A stretch of 64,000 bases of DNA. It comes from Lysobacter sp. (GTDB taxonomy: Bacteria > Pseudomonadota > Gammaproteobacteria > Xanthomonadales > Xanthomonadaceae). The notes under the pieces were generated by a model. The model had not been told where the DNA came from, did not search any database, and saw nothing but the letters and a program-made list of their open reading frames with translations. The first letter of the stretch is position 1; each line of letters begins with the position of its first letter. Shown here in pieces: positions 35,102 through 50,882 of the stretch. Made by a program: the position numbers and the translations under genes. The stretch lies in the NCBI GenBank assembly GCA_008015835.1, contig SSGH01000007.1, positions 248,001 through 312,000 of the forward strand, in the 5' to 3' direction.

Positions 35102-35221
35102 CGAACGCGCGCATCCGACGATTTTACGTCCTCGGCTGTGATGTTTCGCGCGCCGCCGCGAATCATGTGAGCATCCACTCCATTCTTCGCCCCCGTGACC
35201 GCCGCCGACGCCCTCCATTCG

Positions 35222-35731
35222 ATGGACACCCGCCACGCCCGCTTCGCCGCCTTACTCGACGCGCATCGCGGCATCGTGTTCAAAGTCGCCAACAGCTACG
35301 GCCGCACGCCGGAAGACCGGCAAGACCTGGCGCAGGAGATCGCGGCGCAGGCCTGGCGCGGCTTCTCCGGCTACGACCCCGCGCGCGCGTTCTCCACGTG
35401 GCTGTACCGCATCGCTCTGAACGTGGCGATTTCGTCCGCGCGCAGCGCCGGCGCGCGCAACTCGACCGAGCCCTTGGACGAAGCGCACGAATCGCACGAA
35501 GGCTTCGCGGTCGCCGACGACAGCGATCGGCACGACCACGACCGACGCATCCGCGCGCTGTACGCGGTGATAGACCGGCAACCGCCACTGGACCGCGCGC
35601 TACTGCTGCTGTGGCTGGACGAGCGCAGCCAGCGCGAAATCGGCGACGTGCTGGGGCTCAGCGAAAGCAATGTCGCGACCAAGCTCAACCGACTCAAACA
35701 ACGCCTGCGCGAACAGATGGCGGAGGACTGA
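35222..35731 (+). CDS. RNA polymerase ECF-type sigma factor (sigma-70 family)
   Basis: 169 residues from the ATG at 35222; a GTG at 35195 is an alternative, and neither has a clear Shine-Dalgarno. Region 2 is about 10-80 (DLAQEIAAQAWRGFSGYDPARAFSTWLYRIALN, with the ECF W-L-Y-R-I-A-N pattern) and region 4 about 110-165 (LWLDERSQREIGDVLGLSESNVATKL). It is divergent from the RsmC-like gene. A membrane protein gene starts 59 nt later and may act with it, though it lacks a standard anti-sigma domain. Confidence 0.85.
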   Translation: MDTRHARFAALLDAHRGIVFKVANSYGRTPEDRQDLAQEIAAQAWRGFSGYDPARAFSTWLYRIALNVAISSARSAGARNSTEPLDEAHESHEGFAVADDSDRHDHDRRIRALYAVIDRQPPLDRALLLLWLDERSQREIGDVLGLSESNVATKLNRLKQRLREQMAED

Positions 35732-35790
35732 ATCGCCTCGCCGCGCTCCGCATCCTTCTCGAACATTCCCCGAATACGACGCCTACGACC

Positions 35791-36504
35791 ATGACCACGA
35801 CGAATACGATGAACCCCGCGAGCGACTTCGACGACGCCCGTCTCGACGATCTGAAACGCGCCTGGAAAGCGCTCGACGCGCGCCTGCATCAGCAGAATGC
35901 GCTGCAACTGGATGCCCTGCGCGACCGCAAGCTCGGCCGCGTTCGCGCGAGCCTACGCCCGCTGGCGATCGGGCAGATCGTGCAGATTCTGTTCGGCGCC
36001 GTCTGCGTGCTGATCGGCGTGGGCTTGTGGAAAACCTTCTATGCGATCGTGCCTCTGCTGTTGGCCGGAATCGTGCTGCACGTCTACGGCGTCGCGACCA
36101 TCGCCGCCGCCGGCATCGTGTTGGGCGGCATCGCTCGCATCGACCGCAGCCTGCCTGTGCTGGAGTTGCAGCGGCGCCTGGCGAAACTGCGCAGGTCCTA
36201 CATCCTCAGCGGCATGGCGGTCGGATTGCCGTGGTGGGGCCTGTGGATGCTGCCGCCGATGGTGCTCGTGAGTTTGCACAACGCGAAAACCGGCGTCGAT
36301 GGCCTGCCGATATGGCTGTGGATCAGCCTGATTCTCTGCGCGCTCGCGGCCGCAGGTACGCTGTGGTTCCATCGCTGGTCGCACAGGCCGGGCCGCGAAG
36401 CCTTGGCGAAACGTTTGGACGCCGCCGCCGCGGGCGGCAGTCTGCGCCGCGCGCAGGCGGAGTTGGACGATCTCCAACGCTACCTCGACGACGACGCACG
36501 ATAA
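35791..36504 (+). CDS. Membrane protein, possible partner of the ECF sigma factor
   Basis: 237 residues from MTTTNTMNPASDFDDARLDDL; a second start five codons on is possible. The N-terminal 55 residues are soluble and charged (LKRAWKALDARLHQQNALQL), followed by four membrane helices (about 65-90, 92-115, 150-170, 185-205) and a basic C-terminus. I do not recognise the family with certainty. The layout, a cytosolic N-terminus plus membrane helices right after a sigma gene, would fit a membrane anchor for the sigma factor. Confidence 0.65.
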   Translation: MTTTNTMNPASDFDDARLDDLKRAWKALDARLHQQNALQLDALRDRKLGRVRASLRPLAIGQIVQILFGAVCVLIGVGLWKTFYAIVPLLLAGIVLHVYGVATIAAAGIVLGGIARIDRSLPVLELQRRLAKLRRSYILSGMAVGLPWWGLWMLPPMVLVSLHNAKTGVDGLPIWLWISLILCALAAAGTLWFHRWSHRPGREALAKRLDAAAAGGSLRRAQAELDDLQRYLDDDAR

Positions 36505-36586: not shown

Positions 36587-37534
36587 TCATGGCGAATGCG
36601 TATCGGAACGACGTTCCGGCATGGAGGCGGCGCCATATCCGCGCCACGACGATGCGCCCCGCGCGAGTCCGATGCGTTCGGCTTTCCCAAGACAGGCCTT
36701 GCCGCGCAACGCGTCGACATCGTGAATACGCACGGTGTTCCCCGCGCAACTGATCAGCCCGGTGCGCTGCCATTTCTGCAGTTGCGCATTGAGTTTCGGT
36801 CGACTGGCGTTGACCATCGCCGCGAGGATGCTCTGCGTCGGCGGCAGCGCCACGTCGGCGACGCCGCGCGCGGCGGTCTCCGCGTCGATCGTCGACAGCA
36901 GATGGCGCGCGAGACGCGATTCGAGCCGATGCAAGCACATGATCTCCATCGCATCGATGCTTTTGCGCAAACGTTCGTACATCAGCGCATGGACGCGCTG
37001 CATCAGCGCCGGCTCTTCGCGCAGCGTGAGGAAGCAGCGGCGCGGAATCGACAGCACCCGCACCGGCCCGTAGGCGATCGCGGTGACGCTGCGCGGGCGG
37101 TTTTCGACCAAGGCCATCTCGTCGGTCAATTCGCCGGGTTCGATGGCGTCGAGAATCAATTCCTGGCCTTTCGGGCCGTAGAGGATTTTGTAGAGCGTGC
37201 CGTCGAGCACGATGCCGACGTGATCGCTGGGGTCGCCTTTGAAGAACAGGATGTCGCGCTCGCGCATCCGCCGCTCCACAGCATGGGTCAGCACGCGATG
37301 GATCAAGGTCTCCGGCAATCCGTCGAACAACGCCGACTCGCGCAGCGCCGCGAAGTGGAGACTCGACGAGACGAGAACCGCATCGGACTCCGCATCGCGG
37401 TCGGCGCCGAACTCGCCGTCGTCCGACGCGCGTGCCTCGGCCGACGCATCGCGCGCGATCGTCGGATCGCCCTGAGGCGGCGCCGCGCGCGCGTTCACGC
37501 GCCCCGCCCCGCTCGGGCGCGACGCCGGCAACAC
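36587..37534 (-). CDS. Crp/Fnr family transcriptional regulator at the end of the R-body locus
   Basis: 315 residues from a GTG at 37534; no ATG lies nearer than residue 90, and an internal GTG (VNARAAPP) is also possible. The first 55 residues are a disordered, acidic extension. The cyclic-nucleotide-binding fold is about 60-180 (ERDILFFKGDPSDHVGIVLDG, ILDAIEPGELTDEMAL). The C-terminal helix-turn-helix is about 235-290 (PPTQSILAAMVNASRPKLNAQL). The cNMP pocket lacks the canonical RSA arginine motif, though NRPRSVTAIA is close. It lies 169 nt from the first rebB gene on the same strand, so it probably controls R-body genes. Confidence 0.85.
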   Translation of the reverse strand: MLPASRPSGAGRVNARAAPPQGDPTIARDASAEARASDDGEFGADRDAESDAVLVSSSLHFAALRESALFDGLPETLIHRVLTHAVERRMRERDILFFKGDPSDHVGIVLDGTLYKILYGPKGQELILDAIEPGELTDEMALVENRPRSVTAIAYGPVRVLSIPRRCFLTLREEPALMQRVHALMYERLRKSIDAMEIMCLHRLESRLARHLLSTIDAETAARGVADVALPPTQSILAAMVNASRPKLNAQLQKWQRTGLISCAGNTVRIHDVDALRGKACLGKAERIGLARGASSWRGYGAASMPERRSDTHSP

Positions 37535-37703: not shown

Positions 37704-38021
37704 TCACTGATTCTGAAGGATCAGCATCAAGGTCAGCAGACTGGTCAGATTGTCGGCCGCGCCGGTCTGCGCGACCTTCTGCGCGGCGCCCGCCGCCGCG
37801 GTGGTGTTGAGACTGTAGATCTGCATGACGCCTTGGTTCGACGCCGCCATCGCCAGCATGTTCTGGCGCTGCTGCGACGCCACCGCGTTCTCGAACAGGA
37901 TGCCCATCGAGTGCGCGAGGCTTTGGTAGATCGACCCCATCGCGAACGCCGGCGATTCGCCGAGGGTCTTGACGTTGCTCATGGTCACCGCATCGACGAC
38001 CTGGGAATTCACCTGACTCAT
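37704..38021 (-). CDS. RebB family R-body protein 1
   Basis: 105 residues; AAGGAG precedes its ATG by six bases. It begins with the RebB opening (VNSQVVDAVTMSNVKTLGESPAFAM) and continues with IYQSLAHSMGILFENAVASQQRQN, then MLAMAASNQGVMQIYSL. RebB proteins polymerise into R-bodies, coiled ribbons that extend at low pH and puncture membranes. It is closest to the next two copies but less identical (Met-rich end, LLTLMLILQNQ). It is the last reb gene before the regulator. Confidence 0.9.
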   Translation of the reverse strand: MSQVNSQVVDAVTMSNVKTLGESPAFAMGSIYQSLAHSMGILFENAVASQQRQNMLAMAASNQGVMQIYSLNTTAAAGAAQKVAQTGAADNLTSLLTLMLILQNQ

Positions 38022-38164: not shown

Positions 38165-38479
38165 TCAGCTTTGGAACAGCTCGGCCAGCGCCATCATCGA
38201 GCTGAGATTGTCGGCGATGCCGGTCTGCCCCACTTTCTCGGTCGCGCCCGCGGCCGCGGTGGTGTCGACGCTGTAGATCTGCATCACGCCCTGATTCGAA
38301 GCGGCCATCGCCAGCGTGTTCTGCTGCTGCTGCGCGCCGATGGCGTTCTCGAACAGGATGCCGGTCGAATGGCCCAGCGCTTGGTACATGGCGCTCATCG
38401 CGAACGCCGGCGACTCGGCGAGGACTTTGACGTTGGACTGGGTGACGGCATCGGTCACTTGTTCGTTGACGCTGCTCAT
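38165..38479 (-). CDS. RebB family R-body protein 2
   Basis: 104 residues; AAGGAG precedes its ATG by six bases. It carries the RebB opening QVTDAVTQSNVKVLAESPAF, a helix with YQALGHSTGILFENAIGAQQQQN, and TLAMAASNQGVMQIYS. Residues 8-75 are nearly the same as in RebB 3. It should be a structural subunit of the ribbon. Spacing to the neighbouring copies is 143 and 183 nt, so each has its own leader. Confidence 0.92.
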   Translation of the reverse strand: MSSVNEQVTDAVTQSNVKVLAESPAFAMSAMYQALGHSTGILFENAIGAQQQQNTLAMAASNQGVMQIYSVDTTAAAGATEKVGQTGIADNLSSMMALAELFQS

Positions 38480-38662: not shown

Positions 38663-38980
38663 TCACTGCTGGAACAGTTTCACCAGCGTCAGCATCGAGG
38701 TCAGATTGTCGGCGATGCCGGTCTGCGCCACTTTCTCGGTCGCGCCCGCGGCCGCCGTGGTGTCGACGCTGTAGATCTGCATCACGCCCTGATTCGAGGC
38801 GGCCAGCGCCAGCGTGTTCTGCTGCTGCTGCGCGGCGACGGAGTTCTCGAACAGGATGCCGGTCGAGTGGCCCAGGGCCTGATAGATCGAGCTCATCGCG
38901 AACGCGGGCGATTCGGCGATCACTTTGACGTTGGACTGGGTCACGGCATCGGTGATCTGGGGATTGACGGTGATAGCCAT
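38663..38980 (-). CDS. RebB family R-body protein 3
   Basis: 105 residues from MAITVNPQITDAVTQSNVKV; AGGAGA lies seven bases upstream, which selects this ATG over the one at 39016. It is almost collinear with RebB 2 (YQALGHSTGILFENSVAAQQQQN, TAAAGATEKVAQTGIADNL). Two near-identical copies plus a variant suggest that the ribbon is a copolymer, as in Caedibacter, where several Reb proteins are needed. Confidence 0.92.
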   Translation of the reverse strand: MAITVNPQITDAVTQSNVKVIAESPAFAMSSIYQALGHSTGILFENSVAAQQQQNTLALAASNQGVMQIYSVDTTAAAGATEKVAQTGIADNLTSMLTLVKLFQQ

Positions 38981-39128: not shown

Positions 39129-39452
39129 CTAGGACTGCAGCTTTTGCAGCAGGTCGACGAAAACGTTCAGCCGCTCGGTCGCCGAGGCGACCGCGACGGC
39201 TTCCGCCTCGGCCCCGGCGGCGACCTGCGCGCCGAGACCGACGCTGAGCATTTCGCGGACGTTGAGGTCTGTCGCGGTGTTCGCCGCGATCGCGCCGCGC
39301 TGCTGTTCGGCGACCGCGTTCTGGAACATCACCGCGGTCGAATGCGCGAAGCTCTGATAGCTGGCGGCGCTGGAAAAATCGACGGCGCTCGCGACGATCG
39401 CGTCGGTCTGGGTCACCGCATCCGCGACGGCATCGCCTTTCTGCTCGTTCAT
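39129..39452 (-). CDS. Diverged RebB-like R-body protein 4
   Basis: 107 residues from MNEQKGDAVADAVTQTD; GGAGG precedes the ATG at 39452 by nine bases. It keeps the DAVTQT opening and SYQSFAHSTAVMFQNAVAEQQRG, but lacks the NQGVMQIYS block of the other copies. The end is richer in Ala and acid (AEAEAVAVASATERLN). It could cap, nucleate or vary the polymer. It is the first copy of the four-gene run. Confidence 0.82.
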   Translation of the reverse strand: MNEQKGDAVADAVTQTDAIVASAVDFSSAASYQSFAHSTAVMFQNAVAEQQRGAIAANTATDLNVREMLSVGLGAQVAAGAEAEAVAVASATERLNVFVDLLQKLQS

Positions 39453-39625: not shown

Positions 39626-40282
39626 TCAACGTTCGCGTGCGCCGCGTGTGAACTTCTTTTTCGCCGCGCGCTTACGACGCTCGTCGGTCTCGCGCTTGGC
39701 GGGTTTCGTTCCGTACACTTCGGCGTGCGCTTCGTCGCGCGCGCGCTGCGCGCTCTTTTCGTTCACCTGTTTCTGCACGCTGTCGACCACCCCGTGCAGA
39801 CGTTCCGCGAGCGGGCCGAAGGTCTGCTGCACGTAGCGGTCGACTTCGAAGCGCAGCAACGCGATCAAGCCGTCGCCGAGATCGGCGATCCTGCGCTCGC
39901 GGCTGCCCTCCGGCGCCGGCTGCGCGGGCTCCGCGCTGGACAAGCGCCGATGCGCGGCGCCGATCACGGCCGCGAGCGTATCCAGCGTGTGATCCTCGCG
40001 CGGTCCGCGCGAGAGCGTCGGCATCGCCAGCACGTCGCGCAGCAGCGCGTCGTTGCGCGCGCGGTGCTCGTCGATCGCCTTAGCGGCGTTGCGCCGCAGC
40101 GCTCCCGCAGGACCGTCCTGCGACATCCGCGCCGCCTCGGCGGCCGCGCTGGTCTCCGCCCAGGCTTTGAGCTTGCGATCCAGGTCTTCGCTCAACGGCG
40201 CGCCCACTCGCACTTCGGCCACTTTCTTGGCCAGCTCGTAGAGTTCCTGCGCTTTCTTGCTCATCTCGGGTCGATCGTTCAC
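39626..40282 (-). CDS. Unknown charged helical protein of the R-body locus
   Basis: 218 residues, no recognised domain. The composition is helical and charged: an N-terminal part (ELYELAKKVAEVRVGAPLSEDLDRKLKAWAETS), a middle helical segment with a possible coiled coil (LIALLRFEVDRYVQQTFGPLAERLHGVV), and a strongly basic C-terminal tail ending RKRAAKKKFTRGARER. The start overlaps the stop of the 69-residue gene (ATGA), so they are translated together. A basic tail could bind nucleic acid or a polymer surface. It is likely an assembly or accessory factor, but that is inference. Confidence 0.7.
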   Translation of the reverse strand: MNDRPEMSKKAQELYELAKKVAEVRVGAPLSEDLDRKLKAWAETSAAAEAARMSQDGPAGALRRNAAKAIDEHRARNDALLRDVLAMPTLSRGPREDHTLDTLAAVIGAAHRRLSSAEPAQPAPEGSRERRIADLGDGLIALLRFEVDRYVQQTFGPLAERLHGVVDSVQKQVNEKSAQRARDEAHAEVYGTKPAKRETDERRKRAAKKKFTRGARER

Positions 40283-40488
40283 GTACGCCTCCCGAAGGTT
40301 CGCAGCAGCATCAGCATCAACAGCAGATCGCGTCGGCGATCGCGCGGGGCGGCCTGTGCGGCGTGGCCCGCGCCGTCGTTCGACGCCGCCGGCGCGGATG
40401 CGACCGCCGGCAGCGATGTCGACGCCTCGGCGGGCGGGCGCCGCTCCAACAGCGGTCGCGCCATCAGAAATTGCTTGACCCGATCCAT
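40279..40488 (-). CDS. Small protein coupled to the 218-residue gene in the R-body locus
   Basis: 69 residues. The N-terminus is MDRVKQFLMARPLLER, the centre is Ala-rich and disordered, and the C-terminus has a short hydrophobic run (DLLLMLMLLRTF) between basic residues. It begins 31 nt after the deaminase-like gene and ends in an ATGA overlap with the 218-residue gene, which supports translation. It resembles no family I know. A peripheral membrane or scaffold peptide is possible. Confidence 0.62.
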   Translation of the reverse strand: MDRVKQFLMARPLLERRPPAEASTSLPAVASAPAASNDGAGHAAQAAPRDRRRDLLLMLMLLRTFGRRT

Positions 40489-40519: not shown

Positions 40520-42745
40520 TCAACCGCGCTCCACCACGACCACCGACGACGGCCCCTTGTAGCCCTCGAAGCGGCGCAGCGGCGCGGCGGCGTTCTCCGG
40601 CTGCGGCAATCCGGGGCTCACCGCGGTGGCCCAATACGCGCCGGCCACCGACAGCATCAGCGTCTGCAGCGCATCCAATAACGTATCGTTCGCCGCGACG
40701 CGGCCGACCGGCAGCGCTTGATACGCGACGATCAACAGCATGCGCAGGAATTCGTCCTGCAGATCGGTGTGCTCGACGCCTTGACCGTCCGCGCCCAGCA
40801 AGTAGCAGCGCCAGTTCTGGAACGCCGACAGCGCCAGCACCAGGGCTTCGAACCAAAACGCCGGCGCGGGAATGTCGCCCGCGATCTCCAGCGCGATGCG
40901 CTTGTAGAGGGCGTAGGCGTCCGGCATCGCGTCGGCGATGGGGCCGAGCGCGGAACGCAGCATGCCCTCGATGCGGCCGCGATTGCCGCGCTCGTCGAGG
41001 AGCTGCGCCAACGTGCCCTGCCCGGCGCTGATCGCCAACAGCGTCTGCACGTCGGCTTCGCTCAAAGCCTCGTTGCCCATGTACGCCACCGCGTCGCTCG
41101 CGGCGACCAGCACATCGGTGTCGATGTAGCCGTCGAGATGGCGGAAGCCGCGATTGATCCGATACTCGTCGGCCGACCAGAACAAACCCGACGCGCCGGT
41201 GATGGTGTTGCTGCCGAGATTGGTGTCGAGCGCGAATTTCGGAAACTTCGCTTGGATGAAGCCGCGATAGTAGAAGTCGTGGCCCAGGCGGAACGCGTAC
41301 GGCGCATTGTCGGCAGTGAGCACATCGTAGTACGTGCGACCGCCGGCGTTCGGCGCCGGCCGTTCGAGGGCCTCGGCGATCGCCATCGCGTTGCGCTTGC
41401 CGTTGTAGGCCACGCGCTGCGCGGATTCCGGCGTGTTCACGTCGAAGCGACGCAGTTTCAATCCGCTCCAGGTCAAGGAATCGTCGCGGAACAACTCGTC
41501 GAACAAGCCGGACGGGCCGTCGGCTTTGCGCGCGGGCGCGCCGCCGGTGCCGTGCCGGTCCGCCGCGTTCTTCTTCGCCGCGTTCTCGGCGCAGCGCCGG
41601 ATGTACGCGGCGAGCGTGCGGTAGAACTCTTCGCCCAAGCGCGCGGTCGCGCACATCCGCGCGTAGCCAATCGTCGAGCGATGATCGGCATCGGCCGACG
41701 CGCCCTCGCCGCAGTGGATATGGATCGCCATCGCCCGCGCGCGATTCGCCTCGCTGCGGCCGAAATCCAGATGCAGCGTTTCCGCGGTTTCGCGCAGGAA
41801 TTCCAGCAAGGCGCCGTAATGCGCTACGCGGTTCTCGGTGCCCAGCAGATCCAGACCGATGACCTGCTTGTACAGTCTCGGCTGGCTGAAGAACGGCATG
41901 ATCTTCTGTTCGAGATCGCGACGCAGCGCGTCGCCCGACTGATAACCGCTGGACGTGTGCGCCAGCAGTCGGAATTGGCAGCGATACGCGCGATTGAACG
42001 CTTCCACCATCGGATCGGCCAGCCCGATCTCGTCCGCGCCGAGCGCGATTTGGCTGCAGCGCACGCCGGAGCGGTGCAGGAACGCGAACGTCGCCAGCAT
42101 CCACTTGCGGTACAGCTCTTCGCCGCCGCCCTGCCGGCGCAATTGCTTGAGCAGCGAGGAGCGCGTCTTGTACGCGTCGTCGAACGGCGTGTATTTGTTC
42201 GCGCGATAGATCTTGCGGTTGAAATAGCGCAGGAAAGCGAACATTTGCGCGTCGTATTCGCGCAGATCGCCGACGAACAGTTGTTCGCGCACGCTGCGGT
42301 AGAGTTCGGGCGCTTCGGCCTCGGCGTTGGCGATGCGGTCGTCCAACCACGCGCGCTGGGCCAGCAGCACCGCGCCGATATAGACGTTCTCGGCCGCGCA
42401 TTCGCCGCGTTCGTATCCGGTGGGGTCGGGGCGCAACGCGAGCTTGCGCAGCGGATTGTCGTCGCTCTCCACCCACGCCAGGGCTTCGGCGAACAATCGC
42501 CGTTGGCCGTTGAAAGCGTTCAACGCCGCATCGTCGCCCACGCCCGCGACCAAGCCCAACAGGGACAGCTCGCGCCGCGAATCCCATTCGACCGTGTGCG
42601 CCTGCCCTTCCGACTCGAAGCGAACGATGTAGTCCTGTTCGGCCTTCGGCCCTTCGTCGAGCGGCAAGATGCCGCCGAAATGACTGTGATAGTCGTAGGC
42701 GTATTGCCGGATCGGGGTTCGCGATGTGAGTTTGAAATAGGCCAT
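40520..42745 (-). CDS. Large adenosine-deaminase-like metal hydrolase of the R-body locus
   Basis: 741 residues starting MAYFKLTSRTPIRQYAYDYH. I see the whole ADA active-site set in order: YHSHFGG (metal H20, H22), GLDLLGTE (297-304, the GIDLAGDE strand), HIHCGEG (H344 and E347, as in HAGE), RLGHD (H489, as in RIGHG), LGSNTITG (510-517, as in SNxxTG), and AASDAV (D551, as in NTDDP). The protein is about twice the size of ordinary ADA. Extra regions lie at about 35-285 and 375-480. The fold should be a TIM barrel with one Zn. It may deaminate a nucleoside or nucleotide; substrate unknown. Large divergent ADA-like proteins occur in the RADAR phage-defence system (RdrB). It stands between reb genes, and 31 nt separate it from the small coupled gene. 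Confidence 0.72.
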   Translation of the reverse strand: MAYFKLTSRTPIRQYAYDYHSHFGGILPLDEGPKAEQDYIVRFESEGQAHTVEWDSRRELSLLGLVAGVGDDAALNAFNGQRRLFAEALAWVESDDNPLRKLALRPDPTGYERGECAAENVYIGAVLLAQRAWLDDRIANAEAEAPELYRSVREQLFVGDLREYDAQMFAFLRYFNRKIYRANKYTPFDDAYKTRSSLLKQLRRQGGGEELYRKWMLATFAFLHRSGVRCSQIALGADEIGLADPMVEAFNRAYRCQFRLLAHTSSGYQSGDALRRDLEQKIMPFFSQPRLYKQVIGLDLLGTENRVAHYGALLEFLRETAETLHLDFGRSEANRARAMAIHIHCGEGASADADHRSTIGYARMCATARLGEEFYRTLAAYIRRCAENAAKKNAADRHGTGGAPARKADGPSGLFDELFRDDSLTWSGLKLRRFDVNTPESAQRVAYNGKRNAMAIAEALERPAPNAGGRTYYDVLTADNAPYAFRLGHDFYYRGFIQAKFPKFALDTNLGSNTITGASGLFWSADEYRINRGFRHLDGYIDTDVLVAASDAVAYMGNEALSEADVQTLLAISAGQGTLAQLLDERGNRGRIEGMLRSALGPIADAMPDAYALYKRIALEIAGDIPAPAFWFEALVLALSAFQNWRCYLLGADGQGVEHTDLQDEFLRMLLIVAYQALPVGRVAANDTLLDALQTLMLSVAGAYWATAVSPGLPQPENAAAPLRRFEGYKGPSSVVVVERG

Positions 42746-42805
42746 GCCTCGACTCCTGTCCGTGTCGCCGCCTCCCCGGCGACGGGTCGTCCTCGCGCGC
42801 GGACC

Positions 42806-43585
42806 TTATCCGCCGCCGCTGGCGCCTTTGCTGCGATCGAGCAGTTCGGCGTACTTGGAGATGCTTTGATCGATCTTGTCCATGGCGAAACTCGCGGCCT
42901 CGCCTTCCATCGCGCCGGTGGCGGCCGCCACCGCGGCGGCGGCGGCGACCATGATGTCGGTCGCCAGCACGCCCAAACCTTGCACCAGCGCGTCCTCCGC
43001 GCCCGCCGCGCCCTTTGCCAAGCTCTTCGTCATTTCGGTGATCAGCACCGCTTGGCTGGACAGCGCCAACTTGCTCACGCCGTCGAAATACGACAGCGCC
43101 GATTGCGACGCGAGCGCGGCGGTTTGGCTGATCAGCATGTCCGCATCGGTCGCGATCTGCGAAGCGGCGTAGCTGGCGGTCTCGGCGTTGGCGAAACTCA
43201 CCGCCTGCACGATCTGCGTGTTCAACGCGGAGGTGTCGGGCGGGTCGTCGATGCGCGGCGCGAAGGTGGTGGGATTGGCGCGGAACCGCCACGAATTCGG
43301 CGGCGCGACGCCGGCGGCCCGCGGCGGCGCTCGACGCGCGCGCGCAGTGTCGGCGCGGTCGTTGCGGTCGTCTCGCTCGTTGCCGCCCGCTTCGTTCGGG
43401 GCGCGGCGCGCATCGTCGCTGTGCGGCGATGTTTCGGCAGACGTTCCGGCATTCGATGCGGACTTCGCGTCGACCTCGGATTCGCGCGCGCTCGGCGCGC
43501 TCGCGGCCGCGCCGCCGAGCGCATCGTCGCCCGACTCGTCGTCCGGCTCGCGGGCTTTGATCGACTTCCACGTCCGCTGGCGCAT
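42806..43585 (-). CDS. R-body locus protein with disordered N-terminus and RebB-like C-terminal half
   Basis: 259 residues from MRQRTWKSIKAREPDDESG; AGAGG lies nine bases before the ATG at 43585, and the upstream ATG at 43621 is not needed. Residues 1-115 are highly charged and low-complexity (runs of R, D, A). From about 118 on it is a helical, Ala/Ser-rich region: LNTQIVQAVSFANAETASYAASQI, then ALASQSALSYFDGVSKLALSSQ, resembling the QITDAVTQSN...YQ pattern of RebB only weakly. It is probably a ribbon-associated protein, perhaps linking cargo. It ends 60 nt before the deaminase-like gene. Confidence 0.65.
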   Translation of the reverse strand: MRQRTWKSIKAREPDDESGDDALGGAAASAPSARESEVDAKSASNAGTSAETSPHSDDARRAPNEAGGNERDDRNDRADTARARRAPPRAAGVAPPNSWRFRANPTTFAPRIDDPPDTSALNTQIVQAVSFANAETASYAASQIATDADMLISQTAALASQSALSYFDGVSKLALSSQAVLITEMTKSLAKGAAGAEDALVQGLGVLATDIMVAAAAAVAAATGAMEGEAASFAMDKIDQSISKYAELLDRSKGASGGG

Positions 43586-43691
43586 CGTCCTATCCTCTTC
43601 TCGTCGACGGCGCGCGCGCATCGCGCGCGCGGCCTCCGTCCTCGGCTCTAGCGGCGCATACCGCGCCGCGCGGGGTCATGGCGCGTCGGGT

Positions 43692-43916
43692 TCAATCGCC
43701 GATCGACATGATCATCGTCGCCGCCTTCGACACCACCGCCGTCGTGATCTGGTTCAACGCCTGTTGGCTTTGCACCGCGTTCTGCAGCGACAGACCGATC
43801 GAATGGCTGGCCACCTGATACAGCGCAGCGATCGCTTGCGCGGGCGCCTCGGCGACGACCTTGACGTTGGTCTGGGTGACGGCATCCGTGATTTGCGCGT
43901 TGACTTGGTCGCTCAT
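43692..43916 (-). CDS. RebB family R-body protein 5 (short form)
   Basis: 74 residues starting MSDQVNAQITDAVTQTNVKV. It matches the first two-thirds of RebB (YQVASHSIGLSLQNAVQSQQALNQI), then stops after MIMSIGD; the block after NQGVMQIYS is missing. It is separated from the other four copies by the deaminase-like and accessory genes and lies nearest the ECF sigma gene. Known RebB proteins include short forms of about this length, so it need not be a truncation. Confidence 0.88.
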   Translation of the reverse strand: MSDQVNAQITDAVTQTNVKVVAEAPAQAIAALYQVASHSIGLSLQNAVQSQQALNQITTAVVSKAATMIMSIGD

Positions 43917-44001
43917 GTCCTCTCCCTGCCCGGTTCCGGCTTCGGTGATTCGACGGCCGCCGCGCGCGCATGGTCGCGAAACGCCCTGTCGCGGTATCCG
44001 C

Positions 44002-44029
44002 CGCGTTTCCGTTCAAACGAGGAAACGCG
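44002..44029. promoter_or_regulatory. 28-bp perfect inverted repeat upstream of rebB gene 5
   Basis: CGCGTTTCC and GGAAACGCG flank a ten-base spacer (GTTCAAACGA). It lies 86-113 nt before the ATG at 43916 in the gap after the ECF sigma gene. It could be an operator for the R-body operon, or a hairpin in its leader. Confidence 0.5.
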
Positions 44030-44142
44030 ACGGTTGTGAACTGCATAGTCGAAAGCGCTTGCGAACCGACCGACCGCCCGCGATCCGCGTCCGCGCGCGA
44101 CGAACGCGCGAGATCTCGCGGACGATTCGCACGCTAGCGCGA

Positions 44143-44721
44143 TCACGCGCCGTCTCCGGCCGCGGTGCGCAACCGACGGCGCAGCAACTGAATGCGCTTG
44201 CGCGCCACCGCCTCGTCGATGCGCAGCAGATGCGCGATATCGGGATACGGCAGTTCCTGCAAAAAACGGTAGTCGAACAATCGCTGCTGCTCGCGCTTCA
44301 TCGCGGCCACCACCGAGGCGACGCGCGCCAGCACTTGCGCGGTTTCCAAACGCCGCGGCGCGGAGGCGTCTTCGCTGGCGTCGATCTCGACGCCTTCGCG
44401 CTCCTGCGCCGCTTCGCCGTGCTCGAACACGCGGCCTTCGCGGCCATGACGACGCACGCTATCGATGAAGACGTGCCGCATCACCACGAATAAAAATTGC
44501 TCGGGATCGCTCAACGAAGACGGGGATCGACGCATGAACAGCAACGCCTTGAGCGCGGTGTTGGCGATCAACTCTTCGGCGCGGTCGGCGTGACCGCCGC
44601 ACAGCCGCAGCGCGCGACGACGCAGCTCCGGCAAACGCGCCTTCCACGCGCGGATGAACACTTGATCCGCGGTCGTCGGCGCATCCTGCGCGACTCCCTC
44701 TTCGCGTTTGCGTTGGTCCAT
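44143..44721 (-). CDS. ECF-type RNA polymerase sigma factor at the head of the R-body locus
   Basis: 192 residues. Sigma region 2 is about 30-100 (RRRALRLCGGHADRAEELIANTALKALLF, then DPEQFLFVVMRHVFIDSVRR), and region 4 is about 130-185 (RLFDYRFLQELPYPDIAHLLRIDEAVARKRIQLL). It is on the same strand as the reb genes and first in line. No anti-sigma gene is adjacent. It probably directs transcription of the R-body operon or responds to the same signal. Confidence 0.85.
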   Translation of the reverse strand: MDQRKREEGVAQDAPTTADQVFIRAWKARLPELRRRALRLCGGHADRAEELIANTALKALLFMRRSPSSLSDPEQFLFVVMRHVFIDSVRRHGREGRVFEHGEAAQEREGVEIDASEDASAPRRLETAQVLARVASVVAAMKREQQRLFDYRFLQELPYPDIAHLLRIDEAVARKRIQLLRRRLRTAAGDGA

Positions 44722-45082: not shown

Positions 45083-47590
45083 TCAGCCGCTGGCCTCGCG
45101 CAGCGTGATCGACGGCGCGACATCGAGGATGCGTCGCGTCGCGAGCAGGCCCGCCGCGGTCGCGGCGACCATGCCGATGGCGGCGCCGGCCGCGGCCATC
45201 GCCCAATTCGTCTGCCACGGCAAATCGAACACCCGCGTGGCGACGACGCCCGCCAGCACCGACGCTGCGACCGCCGCGACCACGCCGGACAGCAGCCCGA
45301 TCGCCGCGAATTCCGACGCTTGCGCCATCCGCAATTGACGACGGCTGCCGCCGAGCGCGCGCATCACGCCGCCTTCCTGCAGACGCTCGTCCTGACTCGC
45401 GCTCACCGCCGCCAGCAGCACCAACACGCCGGCCGCGAGCGAGAACCAGAACACCACTTGCACCACCTGCGCGACCTGATCGCCGATGCTGCGCACTTGG
45501 GTGAGGATCGTGTCGACGTCGATCACCGACAGATTCGGAAAGCGCTCGACCACTTCGGCCGTGAAACGCGTGCGTTCGGCCGGCACTTTCACCGCAGTGA
45601 TGTAGCTGGCCGAATAGCCGTCGAGCGCGCCGGGCGAGAACACCACGAAGAAATTCGGCTTGAAGCTTTCCCATTCGACTTTGCGCAGATTCGAGATGCG
45701 CGCGTCGATGCGTTGACCGGCGATATCGAACGCGATGCGGTCGCCGACGCGCCAGCCCAGCGTCTCGGCGAACTTCTCTTCGACCGAGATCTGCGCCGGG
45801 CCGCGATAGTCGCGCGCCCACATCCGACCGGAGACGATCTTATTGTCTTCGCCGAAACCGTCGGCGCTGGAGAGATTGAACTCGCGCTCGGCGAAGCGTC
45901 GCGCGCGCGGATCGTCGTCGGTGTACTGCTCGCCGGTGACGGCGCGCCCGTTGCGCTCGATCAAACGGCCGCGCACCATCGGATAAAGGGTCGGCGGCGC
46001 GATGCCGCGCTCGGCGACGAACGCGCGCAGCGGTTCGACCTGGTCCTGCTGCACGTTGATGATGAAGCGGTTGGGCGCATCGGCCGACAGCGACAGCCGC
46101 CAACGGTCGAGCAGATCGGTGCGCACGAACGTCAGCAGCAGCAGCGCCATCAAGCCCAGCCCCAAGGCCGAGACTTGCGCCACGCTCACGCCCGCGCGTC
46201 GGCTCACGTTGGCCAGCCCGTAGCGCAAACTGCCGCGCAAGCGTCCGCGCGCGCGGCGCAGCGCGAAGATCAACGCCCACGCCAACGCCGCCAACACCGC
46301 CAACGTGCCGGCGATGCCGAACAACATCGCGAAACCGAGCGTGGCCGAGCCCGCCTGCCACCACAACAGCGCGGCGAGCCCGCCGAACCCGGCCAACGCG
46401 ACGAACCAGGCGCTCGGCTCGGCGGCGTCCAAATCGCGGCGCAGCACGCGCAGCGCGGGCACACGGCGCAGCGCCAACACCGGCGGCGCGCCGAACGCGA
46501 TCAACACCGTCATGCCCACCGCCAAACCGTGCAGCGCGGGCGCGAAGCCCGCGGGCGGAATCGAGACGCGCAACACGTCGGCCAACCACAGGCCGATGCC
46601 CCACTGCAGCGCGAACGCGATCACGACGCCGATCGCGCTCGCCGCCGCGCCGAGCATCAGCAGTTCGCCGACATGAATCGAAACGAGAGTCCGTTGGCTC
46701 GCGCCGAGGCAACGCATCACCGCCGCGCCGGACAGATGCCGCGCGCTGTGACGGCGCGCGGCCATCGCCACCGCGACCGCGGCCAACACCACCGACACCA
46801 ATGCCGCCAAACCGAGAAAGCGGCCGGCGCGATCGAGCGCGGAGCGGATTTCCGGTCGCGCATCGGCGATGGTTTCCAAGCGTTGCCCACGCTTGAGCGC
46901 GGGCCGCACCGTCGCCGCGAACCGTTCGATCGCGCGCGCATCGCCGGCCACCACCAAGCGATAGCCGACGCGACTACCTTCCTGGATCAAACCGGTGGCG
47001 GGCAGATCCTTGAGCGACGCGAACACTTTCGGCGCGACGTTGAAATAATCGACGGCGCCGTCGGGTTCCTGCAGCACCAGCGCGGCCAAGCGCAATTCCG
47101 CGGCGCCGACGCCGATGGCGTCGCCGATCTTCGCATCGAGCGCTTCGGCGCCCGCGCGGCTCAGCCATAGCGTGCCCGGCGTCGGGCCTTCGCGCACCGT
47201 GCGCTCGCCGCGCGCATCGACGATGCGGAATTCGCCGCGCAGCGGGAAGCCGTCGCCGAGCGCGCGCAGTTCGCCCAATTTCAAGCGCGCCGCGTCGCCC
47301 GCGCCGACGCGAATCATCGTCGGCAATTCCACCGTTTGCGTGCGGCGCAGACCGTCGGCGTTCGCGGCCTCGCGCACCGCGCCTTCGATCGGCGCATCGC
47401 CGCGCACCACCGCATCGCCGCCGAGCAAACGATTGGCTTCGATCGCGAGCGCGCGGCCGGCGCGATCGGTGACGAATCCCACCGACGTCACCGCGGTCAC
47501 CGCCAGCACCAAAGCCGCGATCAAAATACGCACATCGCCCGCGGCCAAATCGCGCCGCAGTTGCCGCCATGCGAGCGCGAACGCTTTCAT
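45083..47590 (-). CDS. ABC transporter permease, YbbP-like (double FtsX)
   Basis: 835 residues with the YbbP/FtsX layout: an N-terminal helix (LIAALVLAVTAVTSVGFV), a long periplasmic domain, FtsX domain one (about 245-380), a central pair of helices near 400-440, a second periplasmic part, and FtsX domain two at the end (about 700-830). DVRILIAALVLAVTAVTSVG is a typical YbbP opening. It overlaps the ATPase gene by ATGA. YbbAP-like systems are thought to act on hydrophobic compounds at the envelope. Confidence 0.9.
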   Translation of the reverse strand: MKAFALAWRQLRRDLAAGDVRILIAALVLAVTAVTSVGFVTDRAGRALAIEANRLLGGDAVVRGDAPIEGAVREAANADGLRRTQTVELPTMIRVGAGDAARLKLGELRALGDGFPLRGEFRIVDARGERTVREGPTPGTLWLSRAGAEALDAKIGDAIGVGAAELRLAALVLQEPDGAVDYFNVAPKVFASLKDLPATGLIQEGSRVGYRLVVAGDARAIERFAATVRPALKRGQRLETIADARPEIRSALDRAGRFLGLAALVSVVLAAVAVAMAARRHSARHLSGAAVMRCLGASQRTLVSIHVGELLMLGAAASAIGVVIAFALQWGIGLWLADVLRVSIPPAGFAPALHGLAVGMTVLIAFGAPPVLALRRVPALRVLRRDLDAAEPSAWFVALAGFGGLAALLWWQAGSATLGFAMLFGIAGTLAVLAALAWALIFALRRARGRLRGSLRYGLANVSRRAGVSVAQVSALGLGLMALLLLTFVRTDLLDRWRLSLSADAPNRFIINVQQDQVEPLRAFVAERGIAPPTLYPMVRGRLIERNGRAVTGEQYTDDDPRARRFAEREFNLSSADGFGEDNKIVSGRMWARDYRGPAQISVEEKFAETLGWRVGDRIAFDIAGQRIDARISNLRKVEWESFKPNFFVVFSPGALDGYSASYITAVKVPAERTRFTAEVVERFPNLSVIDVDTILTQVRSIGDQVAQVVQVVFWFSLAAGVLVLLAAVSASQDERLQEGGVMRALGGSRRQLRMAQASEFAAIGLLSGVVAAVAASVLAGVVATRVFDLPWQTNWAMAAAGAAIGMVAATAAGLLATRRILDVAPSITLREASG

Positions 47591-48327
47591 GCGTCCACCA
47601 AACGGCCGGCGTCCAATCGCAGCGTGCGGTCGCAGCGCGCGGCCAAGCGTTCGTCGTGCGTCACCAACACCAACGTGGTGCCGGCGTCGGCGTTCAGGCC
47701 GAACAAGGATTCGATGATGGCCTGACCGGTGCGCGTGTCGAGATTGCCGGTGGGTTCGTCCGCGAACAGCAGCGCGGGCCGGGTCACGAACGCGCGCGCC
47801 AAGGCTACGCGCTGTTGTTCGCCGCCGGACAATTGCCGCGGGTAGTGGCCCAGGCGTTCGCCCAGGCCCACTTTCTCCAGAATCTTCAGCGCCGGCGTGC
47901 GCGCATCGGCGTCGCCGCGCAGCTCCAGCGGCAGCATCACGTTTTCCAAGGCGGTCAAGGACGGCAGCAGTTGGAAGCTTTGGAACACGAAACCGACTTT
48001 TTCGCCGCGCACTTTCGCGCGGCCATCTTCGTCCAGGGCCGACAACGGCGCGCCGTCGAGCGACACTGTGCCCGACGTGGGCGTGTCGAGGCCCGCCATC
48101 AAAGCGAGCAGCGTGCTTTTGCCCGAGCCCGAGGCGCCGACGATGGCGACGCGCTCGCCGGCCGCGATGTCGAAACCGATGTCGTCGAGAATGGTGAGCG
48201 GTCCGCTAGGCAACCCGACCCGTTTCCCTAAGCCGACGACCCGCAGCGCGGGCGTGGATGCGGCGGTGGACGCGCGGGGGACGACGGAAGCGTCGTCGGC
48301 GGATTCGGAAACCGGGCTGAGCGTCAT
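47587..48327 (-). CDS. ABC transporter ATP-binding protein, YbbA-like
   Basis: 246 residues. Walker [10 protein letters not shown] (about 64-72), Q-loop [13 protein letters not shown], signature [14 protein letters not shown], Walker [14 protein letters not shown] and H-loop VTHDERLA. The first 25 residues are a Ser/Ala-rich extension. It overlaps its permease by four bases (ATGA). In E. coli ybbA is divergent from tesA; no such gene is here. Confidence 0.92.
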
Positions 48328-49046: not shown

Positions 49047-50882
49047 TCACTTCACCCGAACATCGTCGATCTCGAACGCGAACGCGCCCAGCGGTTGCCC
49101 CGCGGTGAACGCGAAGCCGCGAACGCGCGCGAGATCGGCGCCGTTGAAACTCGCCAGCGGCAAACGAACTTCCGTCCACTCCGGGCCGGCGACGAAGGTT
49201 TTCATGCTCGGCATCGACTGCATCTGCGCGCCGGAGAACAGCATCGCGCTATACGTGCGACCATCGCCGCGCGCTTTGAACACCAGCTCGCCGCGGTCGG
49301 ACAGATCGACCGGCTGCATCGGCGCGGTCGCCGGAAAATAGATCGCGCCCGACCACGGGAACGCGAAGCCGGGCTTGATCTCGCCGCTCACCGCAAGCGC
49401 GCCGTTCGCGCGATCGAGCTTGCCGACCGACGCGCCGCCAGCCATTTGGTCGGTGGTCGGCGCCCATCCGCTGCCGAATTTCGCCGGCCACACCCCATTC
49501 GCGCCGACGACGGCGGTGCCTTCGAAATCGTCGATCAGCTCCGCGGAGGCGGGCAAGGTTTCGCCGCGCGGCGCTTCGGCCTGCGCGTCTTGGCGCGGAC
49601 GCGCGACCGCATGGCCGTTCTTCCACACGCCGACGATCGCGCGCGTGGCGCGGATGTCCTGCGCGGGGTCGCCGTCGACCAGCAACAGATCCGCGCGCAG
49701 CCCTTCGGCGATGCGCCCGCGGTCGCTCAGCGCGAAACGGCGCGCGGGCGTCGATGTCGCGGCGGCCAGCGCCTGCGTCGGCGTCAAACCGGCGCGCACC
49801 AGCAACTCCATTTCGCCGTGCATGCTGGCGCCGTGCGCGGTGCCGGGGTTGCCGGCGTCGGTGCCGGCCAACAGATCGACGCCCGCCTCGTGCAGCGCGC
49901 GTACGTTTCGGATCGCATCCGCCAGCACGTCGGGGCGCGGCGCGCCCGCGCCGTACGTCGCTTTCAACGCGTCGATCTGCGCGCGGGTCAACCACGGCGA
50001 CAAGCGCGCGTCCTCGGCGATCTTGCGGCCCTCGTCCGCGCGCGCCATCGTCGCGATCACCGACAGCGTCGGCACGACGAAGGCGTTTCGACGTTTCGCC
50101 GCCGCGACGAACGCGGCGTCGCCGGGTTCGACGAACATATGCACCAAGCCATCGGCACCGTTTTCCACCGCAGCGCGCCCATCGCGCAAACGCGACACAT
50201 GCACGACCGCGAGCTTGTCTTCGGCGTGCGCGGCGGCGATCGCTGCGCGCGTTTGCGCTTCGGTCAGCGTCGGCAAGCGCATCGTCTCGCTGTGCGCGCT
50301 GAAATCCTCGAGGATGATCTTGACGTAATCCGAGCCCTCCGCAACCCGCGCTTTCACGAACGTGGTCGCGTCCTCGCCCGCGGCCAGCGTCGGCACGGCC
50401 ATGCCGTACTGCGTGCCGTGCCCCTTCGGCGCCGTCACCGCCGCGCCCGCGCTCCATAGATCGGCCTGGTCGGTGACCACGAAGGCGGCGCGTTCGGTCT
50501 TCAGACGAGGCAACTGCTGGCGGTCGCCCATCATGTCCAACTCGGTGGTGACGCCGAAACGCAGCGCATCGCGCCGCGCGTCGCCCCAACTGTGGGTATG
50601 CGCATCGATCAAGCCCGGCAGCAGAGTCTTGCCCGCGCCATCGATGCGCTCGGCGCCTTCGGGAAACGTCAGTTGCGCGCCGATCGCGACGATGCGGCCG
50701 TCGCGAATCGAGACGTCGGCGCGTTCGTGCATGCGCACGCCGTCGAAGACGCGGACGTCGTCGAAAAACAAGCCGCCCGCGCCTTCGGCCGACGACGAGG
50801 CGGCGGATACGCACGCGGCGGCGATGCCGATCGCCATCGCGGCCGCGGCCGCGACGCGGGAATGAGGGTTGCGCGACATCAT
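49047..50882 (-). CDS. Secreted amidohydrolase with C-terminal CIA30-like domain
   Basis: 611 residues; AAGGAG lies seven bases before the ATG at 50882. A signal peptide (about 1-27) is followed by an imidazolonepropionase-type amidohydrolase: IDAHTHSWG (metal HxH), VVHVSRL (metal His), LVHMFVEPG, and LLAGTDAGNPGTAHG (metal Asp). The end (about 440-611) starts ELIDDFEG and looks like the CIA30/NDUFAF1 sugar-binding-like fold. Substrates of such periplasmic enzymes are usually N-acyl or cyclic amides. The fusion is not rare in gammaproteobacteria. It has no operon partner here. Confidence 0.85.
   Translation of the reverse strand: MMSRNPHSRVAAAAAMAIGIAAACVSAASSSAEGAGGLFFDDVRVFDGVRMHERADVSIRDGRIVAIGAQLTFPEGAERIDGAGKTLLPGLIDAHTHSWGDARRDALRFGVTTELDMMGDRQQLPRLKTERAAFVVTDQADLWSAGAAVTAPKGHGTQYGMAVPTLAAGEDATTFVKARVAEGSDYVKIILEDFSAHSETMRLPTLTEAQTRAAIAAAHAEDKLAVVHVSRLRDGRAAVENGADGLVHMFVEPGDAAFVAAAKRRNAFVVPTLSVIATMARADEGRKIAEDARLSPWLTRAQIDALKATYGAGAPRPDVLADAIRNVRALHEAGVDLLAGTDAGNPGTAHGASMHGEMELLVRAGLTPTQALAAATSTPARRFALSDRGRIAEGLRADLLLVDGDPAQDIRATRAIVGVWKNGHAVARPRQDAQAEAPRGETLPASAELIDDFEGTAVVGANGVWPAKFGSGWAPTTDQMAGGASVGKLDRANGALAVSGEIKPGFAFPWSGAIYFPATAPMQPVDLSDRGELVFKARGDGRTYSAMLFSGAQMQSMPSMKTFVAGPEWTEVRLPLASFNGADLARVRGFAFTAGQPLGAFAFEIDDVRVK

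Follow-up and report, generated by a model that had tools for sequence, protein, structure and literature searches.

The 64,000-nucleotide stretch of Lysobacter sp. DNA analysed here (contig SSGH01000007.1; henceforth the window), which belongs to a genome of 4.39 Mb, encodes within a cluster of R-body genes a protein of 741 amino acids (aa) that resembles adenosine deaminases (ADA). R-bodies, on which research goes back to the killer paramecia, are coiled protein ribbons linked to the killing of grazers. We interpret the ADA-like protein, tentatively and with slightly less than even confidence, as a divergent purine-deaminase-type enzyme from the ADA branch of the amidohydrolase fold, which would serve the R-body system of some Lysobacterales (Xanthomonadales) as an accessory effector. 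The evidence comes from a predicted ADA-type barrel, from conserved residues at the ends of its strands and from genomic context: in the genomes searched so far, the ADA-like protein is found only beside R-body genes. An enzyme-type gene that has so far been found near RebB only and has a recognizable active site represents a concrete candidate for the R-body payload.

Two overlapping open reading frames (ORF) compete for the locus:

40520..42745, minus strand: ADA-like protein (cluster C5), 741 aa, ATG-started ORF
40718-43651, plus strand: antisense ORF of 977 aa opposite the ADA-like gene, which mirrors the G+C-rich coding strand

The GC content of the ADA-like ORF is 0.65, 0.46 and 0.86 at codon positions 1, 2 and 3, respectively, and comparison with the 86%-identical homologue L006 yields 70, 56 and 208 substitutions at the same positions. 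Because of this composition and the concentration of substitutions at third positions, the minus-strand ORF is taken to be the real coding frame; the same two properties rule out the antisense ORF.

Linkage to RebB

Relatives of the ADA-like protein were identified in 28 of 395 genomes sampled from the host's family and in two of 167 sampled from a sister family within the same order, the first pass of the genome search scoring few candidates per genome, so that distant relatives may be missed. The two sister-family relatives are 44% and 46% identical and retain an intact active site. RebB is present in 90 and 21 of these genomes, respectively. All 30 genomes with the ADA-like gene have RebB, and in each of them 733-1291 bp separate the ADA-like gene from the nearest RebB gene, which is on the same strand; under random assignment, and uncorrected for kinship, the chance of 28 out of 28 is 2.5e-20. 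The initial annotation had left open whether the protein is a toxin, a defence enzyme or a signal-processing enzyme; the linkage speaks for a function connected with R-bodies rather than for independent defence. Profile searches of samples of genomes from the class (1/369) and the phylum (1/398), which were drawn from larger groups, overlap and both include the window's own genome, recovered the window's gene as the sole match. No protein encoded by plasmids matched the ADA-like protein or the one RebB tested, and none of the 15 pattern stretches detected in viral contigs is a relative of the ADA-like protein.

The ADA-like gene is located directly downstream of a Reb-like gene in 22 of the 30 loci. 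In the six loci of genus g7 it lies upstream of the sigma factor gene, still within the cluster; as for the remaining two, L003 starts within the ADA-like gene and the upstream gene of L101 was left uncalled by the gene finder. A search of 20 reb loci devoid of the gene, including two cut by contig ends (L065 and L078) and five with a different reb layout (L070-L073 and L080), revealed no remnants at E <= 0.001, and the ADA-like gene therefore behaves like a clean cassette. The small downstream gene C8 was recognized in 21 of the 30 loci with the enzyme and in three of the 20 without it (L061-L063); L048, L057 and the window have comparable ORFs that were not clustered. In four members the Reb-like gene (C4/C41) has acquired a long N-terminus, for a total of 314-377 aa (L052:7355-8392, L061:10068-11201, L062:10776-11720 and L063:6856-7806), which is Gly/Ala-rich in three C41 members.

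Predicted fold and active site

Two structure models, with predicted local distance difference test (pLDDT) scores of 82.1 and 83.6, feature an eight-stranded ADA-type TIM barrel, the strands of which are predicted at residues 17-22, 230-236, 257-263, 295-300, 339-344, 483-488, 505-508 and 539-542. The initial annotation had proposed an ADA-family enzyme, and the models agree with it: the barrel is predicted and, as judged solely from the strand ends, the active-site residues appear to share one pocket. In a structural search with VIA-align, ADA-family entries fill the first 25 of 50 rows, to which the protein is 11-16% identical; no match at E <= 0.001 was obtained among viral structures (BFVD).

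The putative active site consists of H20, H22, D299/G302, H344, E347, H489, S512-N513 and D542. Its conservation was assessed in two alignments, namely, A1, with all but two of the 28 family proteins (the near-copies L030, of L027, and L037, of L036, were omitted and checked separately), and A3, with the 22 proteins of the family in which the catalytic set is intact (hereafter live) plus L098 and L099. The HxH and HxGE motifs and the histidine following strand 6 occur in the right order at strand ends in all 24 rows of A3 (23 of 23 for HxH). D299, G302, H344, E347, H489, S512, N513 and T516 are present in 24 of 24 rows, and H20 and H22 in 23 of 23, the remaining row being partial in this region; the L007 protein is partial, and its N-terminal piece, L010, contains HSH.

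The residues and motifs listed in the initial annotation (H20, H22, GLDLLGTE at 297-304, H344-C-G-E347, H489 and SNTITG at 512-517) were all found at the positions given, as was the roughly doubled length (741 aa versus ~330-350 aa for a typical ADA). Its claim of a complete active-site set holds for these motifs but not for D551, which had been listed in the set and is not conserved across A3 (D in 13 rows, N in nine, T in one and A in one). D542, at the end of strand 8, is D in 23 rows and E in one, and appears to be a better candidate for the strand-8 acid; D544, two residues further on, is D in 21 rows and N in three.

One divalent metal would be bound through H20, H22, H344 and the strand-8 acid (D542), and E347 and H489 would activate water for hydrolysis of the 6-amino group of the substrate, an adenine nucleoside or nucleotide that is perhaps phosphorylated. 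Phosphorylation of the substrate is hinted at by the likeness to ADAL, N6-methyl-AMP deaminase (MAPDA), Cad1 and RdrB, all of which are nucleotide-acting deaminases, and by changes in the conserved basic residues K178, K184, K200 and H263 in homologues with a broken active site, some of them to R only.

Evidence against a catalytic effector

Several results weigh against the interpretation of the ADA-like protein as an enzymatic effector, beginning with the fact that both deaminase activity and substrate are extrapolated from a predicted fold and its residues. The loop 514-520 after strand 7 has a pLDDT below 50 in the better model, and D542 is replaced by E in L008. A plain Foldseek search of the PDB with the first model produced no match at E <= 0.001, the ADA-family entries appearing among the rows at E 0.28-1.5. 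None of the 26 aligned family members matches the curated PF00962 (A_deaminase) model at E <= 1. The hhalign probabilities are low (36.6%, 23.3% and 37.0%), as are those of local variants run with live rows only (21.8%), with classical ADAs alone (4.5%) and with two ADGF-like proteins (4.9%); the global mode returned nothing meaningful. The comparison with PF00962 proposed in the initial annotation failed for the curated model, yet the profile-profile score against 14 ADA-family proteins (40.3) exceeds that of any of 60 column shuffles (maximum of 21.9) and of the reversed profile (17.0). Sequence alone is suggestive of ADA kinship, which this score places beyond chance, and it is the predicted fold that decides. 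We describe the protein as a divergent ADA-type branch because its fold and residues are ADA-like, yet the curated model failed. In terms of distribution, 62 of the 90 RebB-positive genomes of the family, some with a lone RebB only, lack the ADA-like gene.

A further result concerns the homologues themselves. Although the catalytic set is intact in 22 of the 28 family genomes, most of them encoding proteins 40-55% identical overall to that of the window, six homologues (L027, L030, L036, L037, L038 and L039; four of the 26 proteins in A1) have lost several catalytic residues together while keeping an open frame. Among the columns that are invariant in the 22 live proteins, the broken rows are changed in 27 of 36 catalytic-set cells versus 137 of 516 other cells. 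The corresponding probabilities for co-loss are 0.005 for L027, 0.0008 for L036, 0.0007 for L038 and 0.051 for L039, but the test is not clean: H20/H22 first drew attention to these rows, two of them (L036 and L038) are sisters, and a gap was counted as a change. Fourteen columns are altered in all four rows (H22, K184, Y192, L301, H344, G399, Y447, Y492, N509, S512, N513, T516, Y528 and N531). Half of them lie in the predicted site, where strands end on a single face of the barrel, but the other seven (K184, Y192, G399, Y447, Y492, Y528 and N531) fall outside it. The near-copies L027 and L030 differ at T516, which is kept in L030 and lost in L027. With the caveats given above, the joint loss of catalytic columns supports a single functional site.

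At least two independent losses are needed to explain the phylogeny, in which L036-L039 are flagged for long branches and unusual composition. The ratio of nonsynonymous to synonymous substitutions (dN/dS) is 0.34 for the broken pair L036/L038 and 0.20 for L027/L030, compared with 0.12-0.47 for nine live pairs; the L036/L037 pair is too alike for such an estimate. The broken homologues are thus open and constrained, and catalysis is therefore dispensable in places, which makes a structural role possible. A second, non-catalytic role likely exists or has evolved in some lineages, since these keep a constrained protein stripped of its active site. Such natural losses may separate catalysis from other roles of the ADA-like protein.

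Two of the loci with broken genes have further peculiarities. In L039 (1474-3900), the broken ADA-like frame continues, as judged by eye, into a C8-like end and the conserved C-terminal tail is gone. L049 (13417-18102) carries a broken ADA-like gene in a reb cluster in which the upstream sigma factor and RebB genes were not called, two paralogues of ~704 aa (C64) being found instead; its close relative L102 has kept both sigma factor and RebB.

Proposed role and alternative explanations

How an effector of this kind would operate can be outlined as follows. The ADA-like protein would be produced together with the R-body under the control of the cluster's sigma factor and CRP-like regulator, and would be kept on or close to the ribbon by its conserved C-terminal tail, by the small C8 protein, or by both. 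Upon unrolling of the R-body, it would pass into the grazer along with the rest of the cell contents, where it may disturb the pool of adenine nucleotides. The ribbons alone are described as non-toxic, and the toxin thought to be delivered by them as unidentified, in one survey (PMC3583457). A more specific version of the effector scenario, which we regard as possible but doubtful, is that the deaminase is a clade-specific enzyme and dedicated payload, which is carried together with C8 as a removable cassette, is delivered by the unrolling ribbon and deaminates adenine nucleotides in grazing eukaryotes. If so, R-bodies would resemble an injection system whose cargo can be exchanged, and lineages with broken sites would exemplify cargo turned into a structural or decoy protein.

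The broken homologues make a structural role the main, serious rival to the effector interpretation, even if we find it somewhat unlikely: the protein would be a structural or assembly factor, an ADA-fold scaffold or R-body-binding part with catalysis vestigial or secondary. The retention of full-length, constrained frames by catalytically broken proteins is consistent with this explanation, as are the same-strand proximity to RebB genes, seen in every one of the 30 genomes, and the C-terminal tail G(Y/F)KxPxS, which is kept in 25 of the 26 A1 rows, including the broken L027, L036 and L038, and lost in L039 only. However, 22 of the 28 genomes retain the catalytic set despite considerable divergence, and given that most RebB-positive genomes lack the ADA-like gene, R-body assembly does not generally depend on it.

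An intracellular defence or abortive-infection deaminase akin to RdrB of RADAR or to Cad1 would, once triggered, convert adenosine triphosphate (ATP) to inosine triphosphate (ITP) within the bacterium, the reb cluster being either a convenient neighbour or a lysis arm. We consider this improbable in view of the linkage to RebB in all 30 genomes and of the results of the defence-gene scan, which covered the window neighbours and revealed neither a sensor domain nor an RdrA-like ATPase among them; no model of PADLOC, which includes models of RdrB, matches the ADA-like protein.

Still less probable is a regulatory enzyme that would tune a signal, either a purine or a cyclic nucleotide, to which the CRP-like regulator responds, and thereby control R-body expression. 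The cluster indeed encodes a regulator of the cyclic nucleotide monophosphate (cNMP)-binding type, and R-body expression in Pseudomonas aeruginosa is stochastic and dependent on a regulator and a sigma factor, according to PMC8322103, but the CRP-like gene (C3) is also present in reb clusters without the deaminase (L061-L065, L074-L076, L078 and L079). Finally, a protein with an ADA fold might be an ordinary enzyme of purine salvage, for which many bacteria use ADA, placed in the cluster by chance, but this is highly improbable considering the linkage in 30 of 30 genomes from two families, the strong divergence from PF00962 and the presence elsewhere in the same genome of a separate, and its only, PF00962 match, which is cut by a contig end.

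The R-body cluster of the window

The genes surrounding the ADA-like gene are the following:

36587..37498, minus strand: CRP-like regulator (cluster C3), PF00027 cNMP-binding and HTH_Crp_2 domains; HP2.4-type of Group 2
37704..38021, minus strand: RebB paralogue, PF11747 match at 37800-38000
38165..38479, minus strand: RebB paralogue, PF11747 match at 38255-38458
38663..38980, minus strand: RebB paralogue, PF11747 match at 38753-38956
39129..39452, minus strand: RebB paralogue, weaker PF11747 match at 39234-39428 (35 bits)
39626..40282, minus strand: 218-aa protein (cluster C2) of HP2.1/HP2.2 size, likened by size only, not sequence
40279..40488, minus strand: small ORF of 69 aa (MDRVKQFL...LLRTFGRRT), C8-like in place and build as judged by eye, uncalled by the gene finder
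42806..43621, minus strand: Reb-like protein (cluster C4), 271 aa from the first ATG, with a disordered-looking N-terminus; Reb-likeness judged by eye
43648..44046, minus strand: RebB paralogue, PF11747 match at 43698-43892 found when searching the whole genome; gene-finder start at 43916
44143..44721, minus strand: extracytoplasmic function (ECF)-type sigma factor, PF04542/PF08281; HP2.3-type of Group 2

Five RebB (PF11747) matches above the cut-off flank the ADA-like gene on the same strand, bearing out the location within an R-body cluster proposed in the initial annotation; the ORF 43648..44046, when searched whole and by itself, has no Pfam match. The Reb-like gene lies 60 bp upstream of the ADA-like gene and its product has no match in Pfam or NCBIfam.

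The cluster is adjoined on one side (35195-36504) by another gene of the sigma-70 type (178 aa), located on the plus strand and followed by a 237-aa ORF with no Pfam match, and on the other (45083-48327) by genes for a YbbP-like ATP-binding cassette (ABC) permease (835 aa) and an ABC ATPase; the permease (cluster C7) occurs beside C6 in 19 of 43 compared loci. A nearby amidohydrolase (PF01979) with a CIA30 domain (49047-50882) is unrelated to the ADA-like gene. No RNA families or tRNAs were detected in the 64-kb window. Away from the main cluster, a lone RebB domain is found at contig positions 41947-42150 of the same contig, and G001-G005, G008 and G010 have one such match each. These domains are part of long open frames, of 259-358 aa among those listed, and are found in the window's genus, including genomes without the ADA-like gene.

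Comparison with known systems

Compared with ADAL, MAPDA and the classical ADAs (PF00962), the window protein is about twice as long, the extra length being distributed among 207 residues between strands 1 and 2, 138 between strands 5 and 6 and 199 after strand 8. Its sequence match to Cad1, the CRISPR-associated CARF-adenosine deaminase that converts ATP to ITP, is weak (E 0.14), and no CARF domain of the Cad1 type was found, barrel strand 1 beginning already at residue 17 and no Pfam model matching. The ADA-like protein is neither RADAR, as no RdrA lies beside it in the window, nor Cad1, as it has no CARF; within the ADA fold it would constitute a deep branch that none of the curated models searched covers.

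Among R-body systems, a close parallel by description, rather than by sequence, is RapA (PA14_27680) of P. aeruginosa PA14, likewise an accessory protein of a reb cluster, which co-localizes with R-bodies by microscopy (PMC8322103). RapA itself is assigned to a 'secondary' Reb group in a 2026 survey (PMC13430693), and the possibility that the ADA-like gene is a rapA homologue was dropped for this reason, on the basis of description only.

A literature search pairing R-bodies or refractile body with adenosine deaminase found no paper, and the titles among the matches listed for RebB and deaminase were on other subjects (human enzymes, viruses, ATP and endotoxemia). No enzyme of ~740 aa was found in the accessible parts of the published surveys of reb clusters (PMC3583457, PMC13430693). 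As described in the former, Group 2 reb clusters carry HP2.1, HP2.2, the sigma factor HP2.3 and the cyclic-nucleotide regulator HP2.4. The window shares with them the RebB paralogues, the ECF sigma factor and the CRP-like regulator, and its 218-aa and 271-aa genes sit where HP2.1 and HP2.2 (~205-220 aa) would be expected, the former being likened to them by size only. The cluster of the window appears to be the published Group 2 reb layout plus an enzyme, whose predicted fold is a familiar one but whose setting is unexpected and, in the genomes searched so far, strictly conserved.
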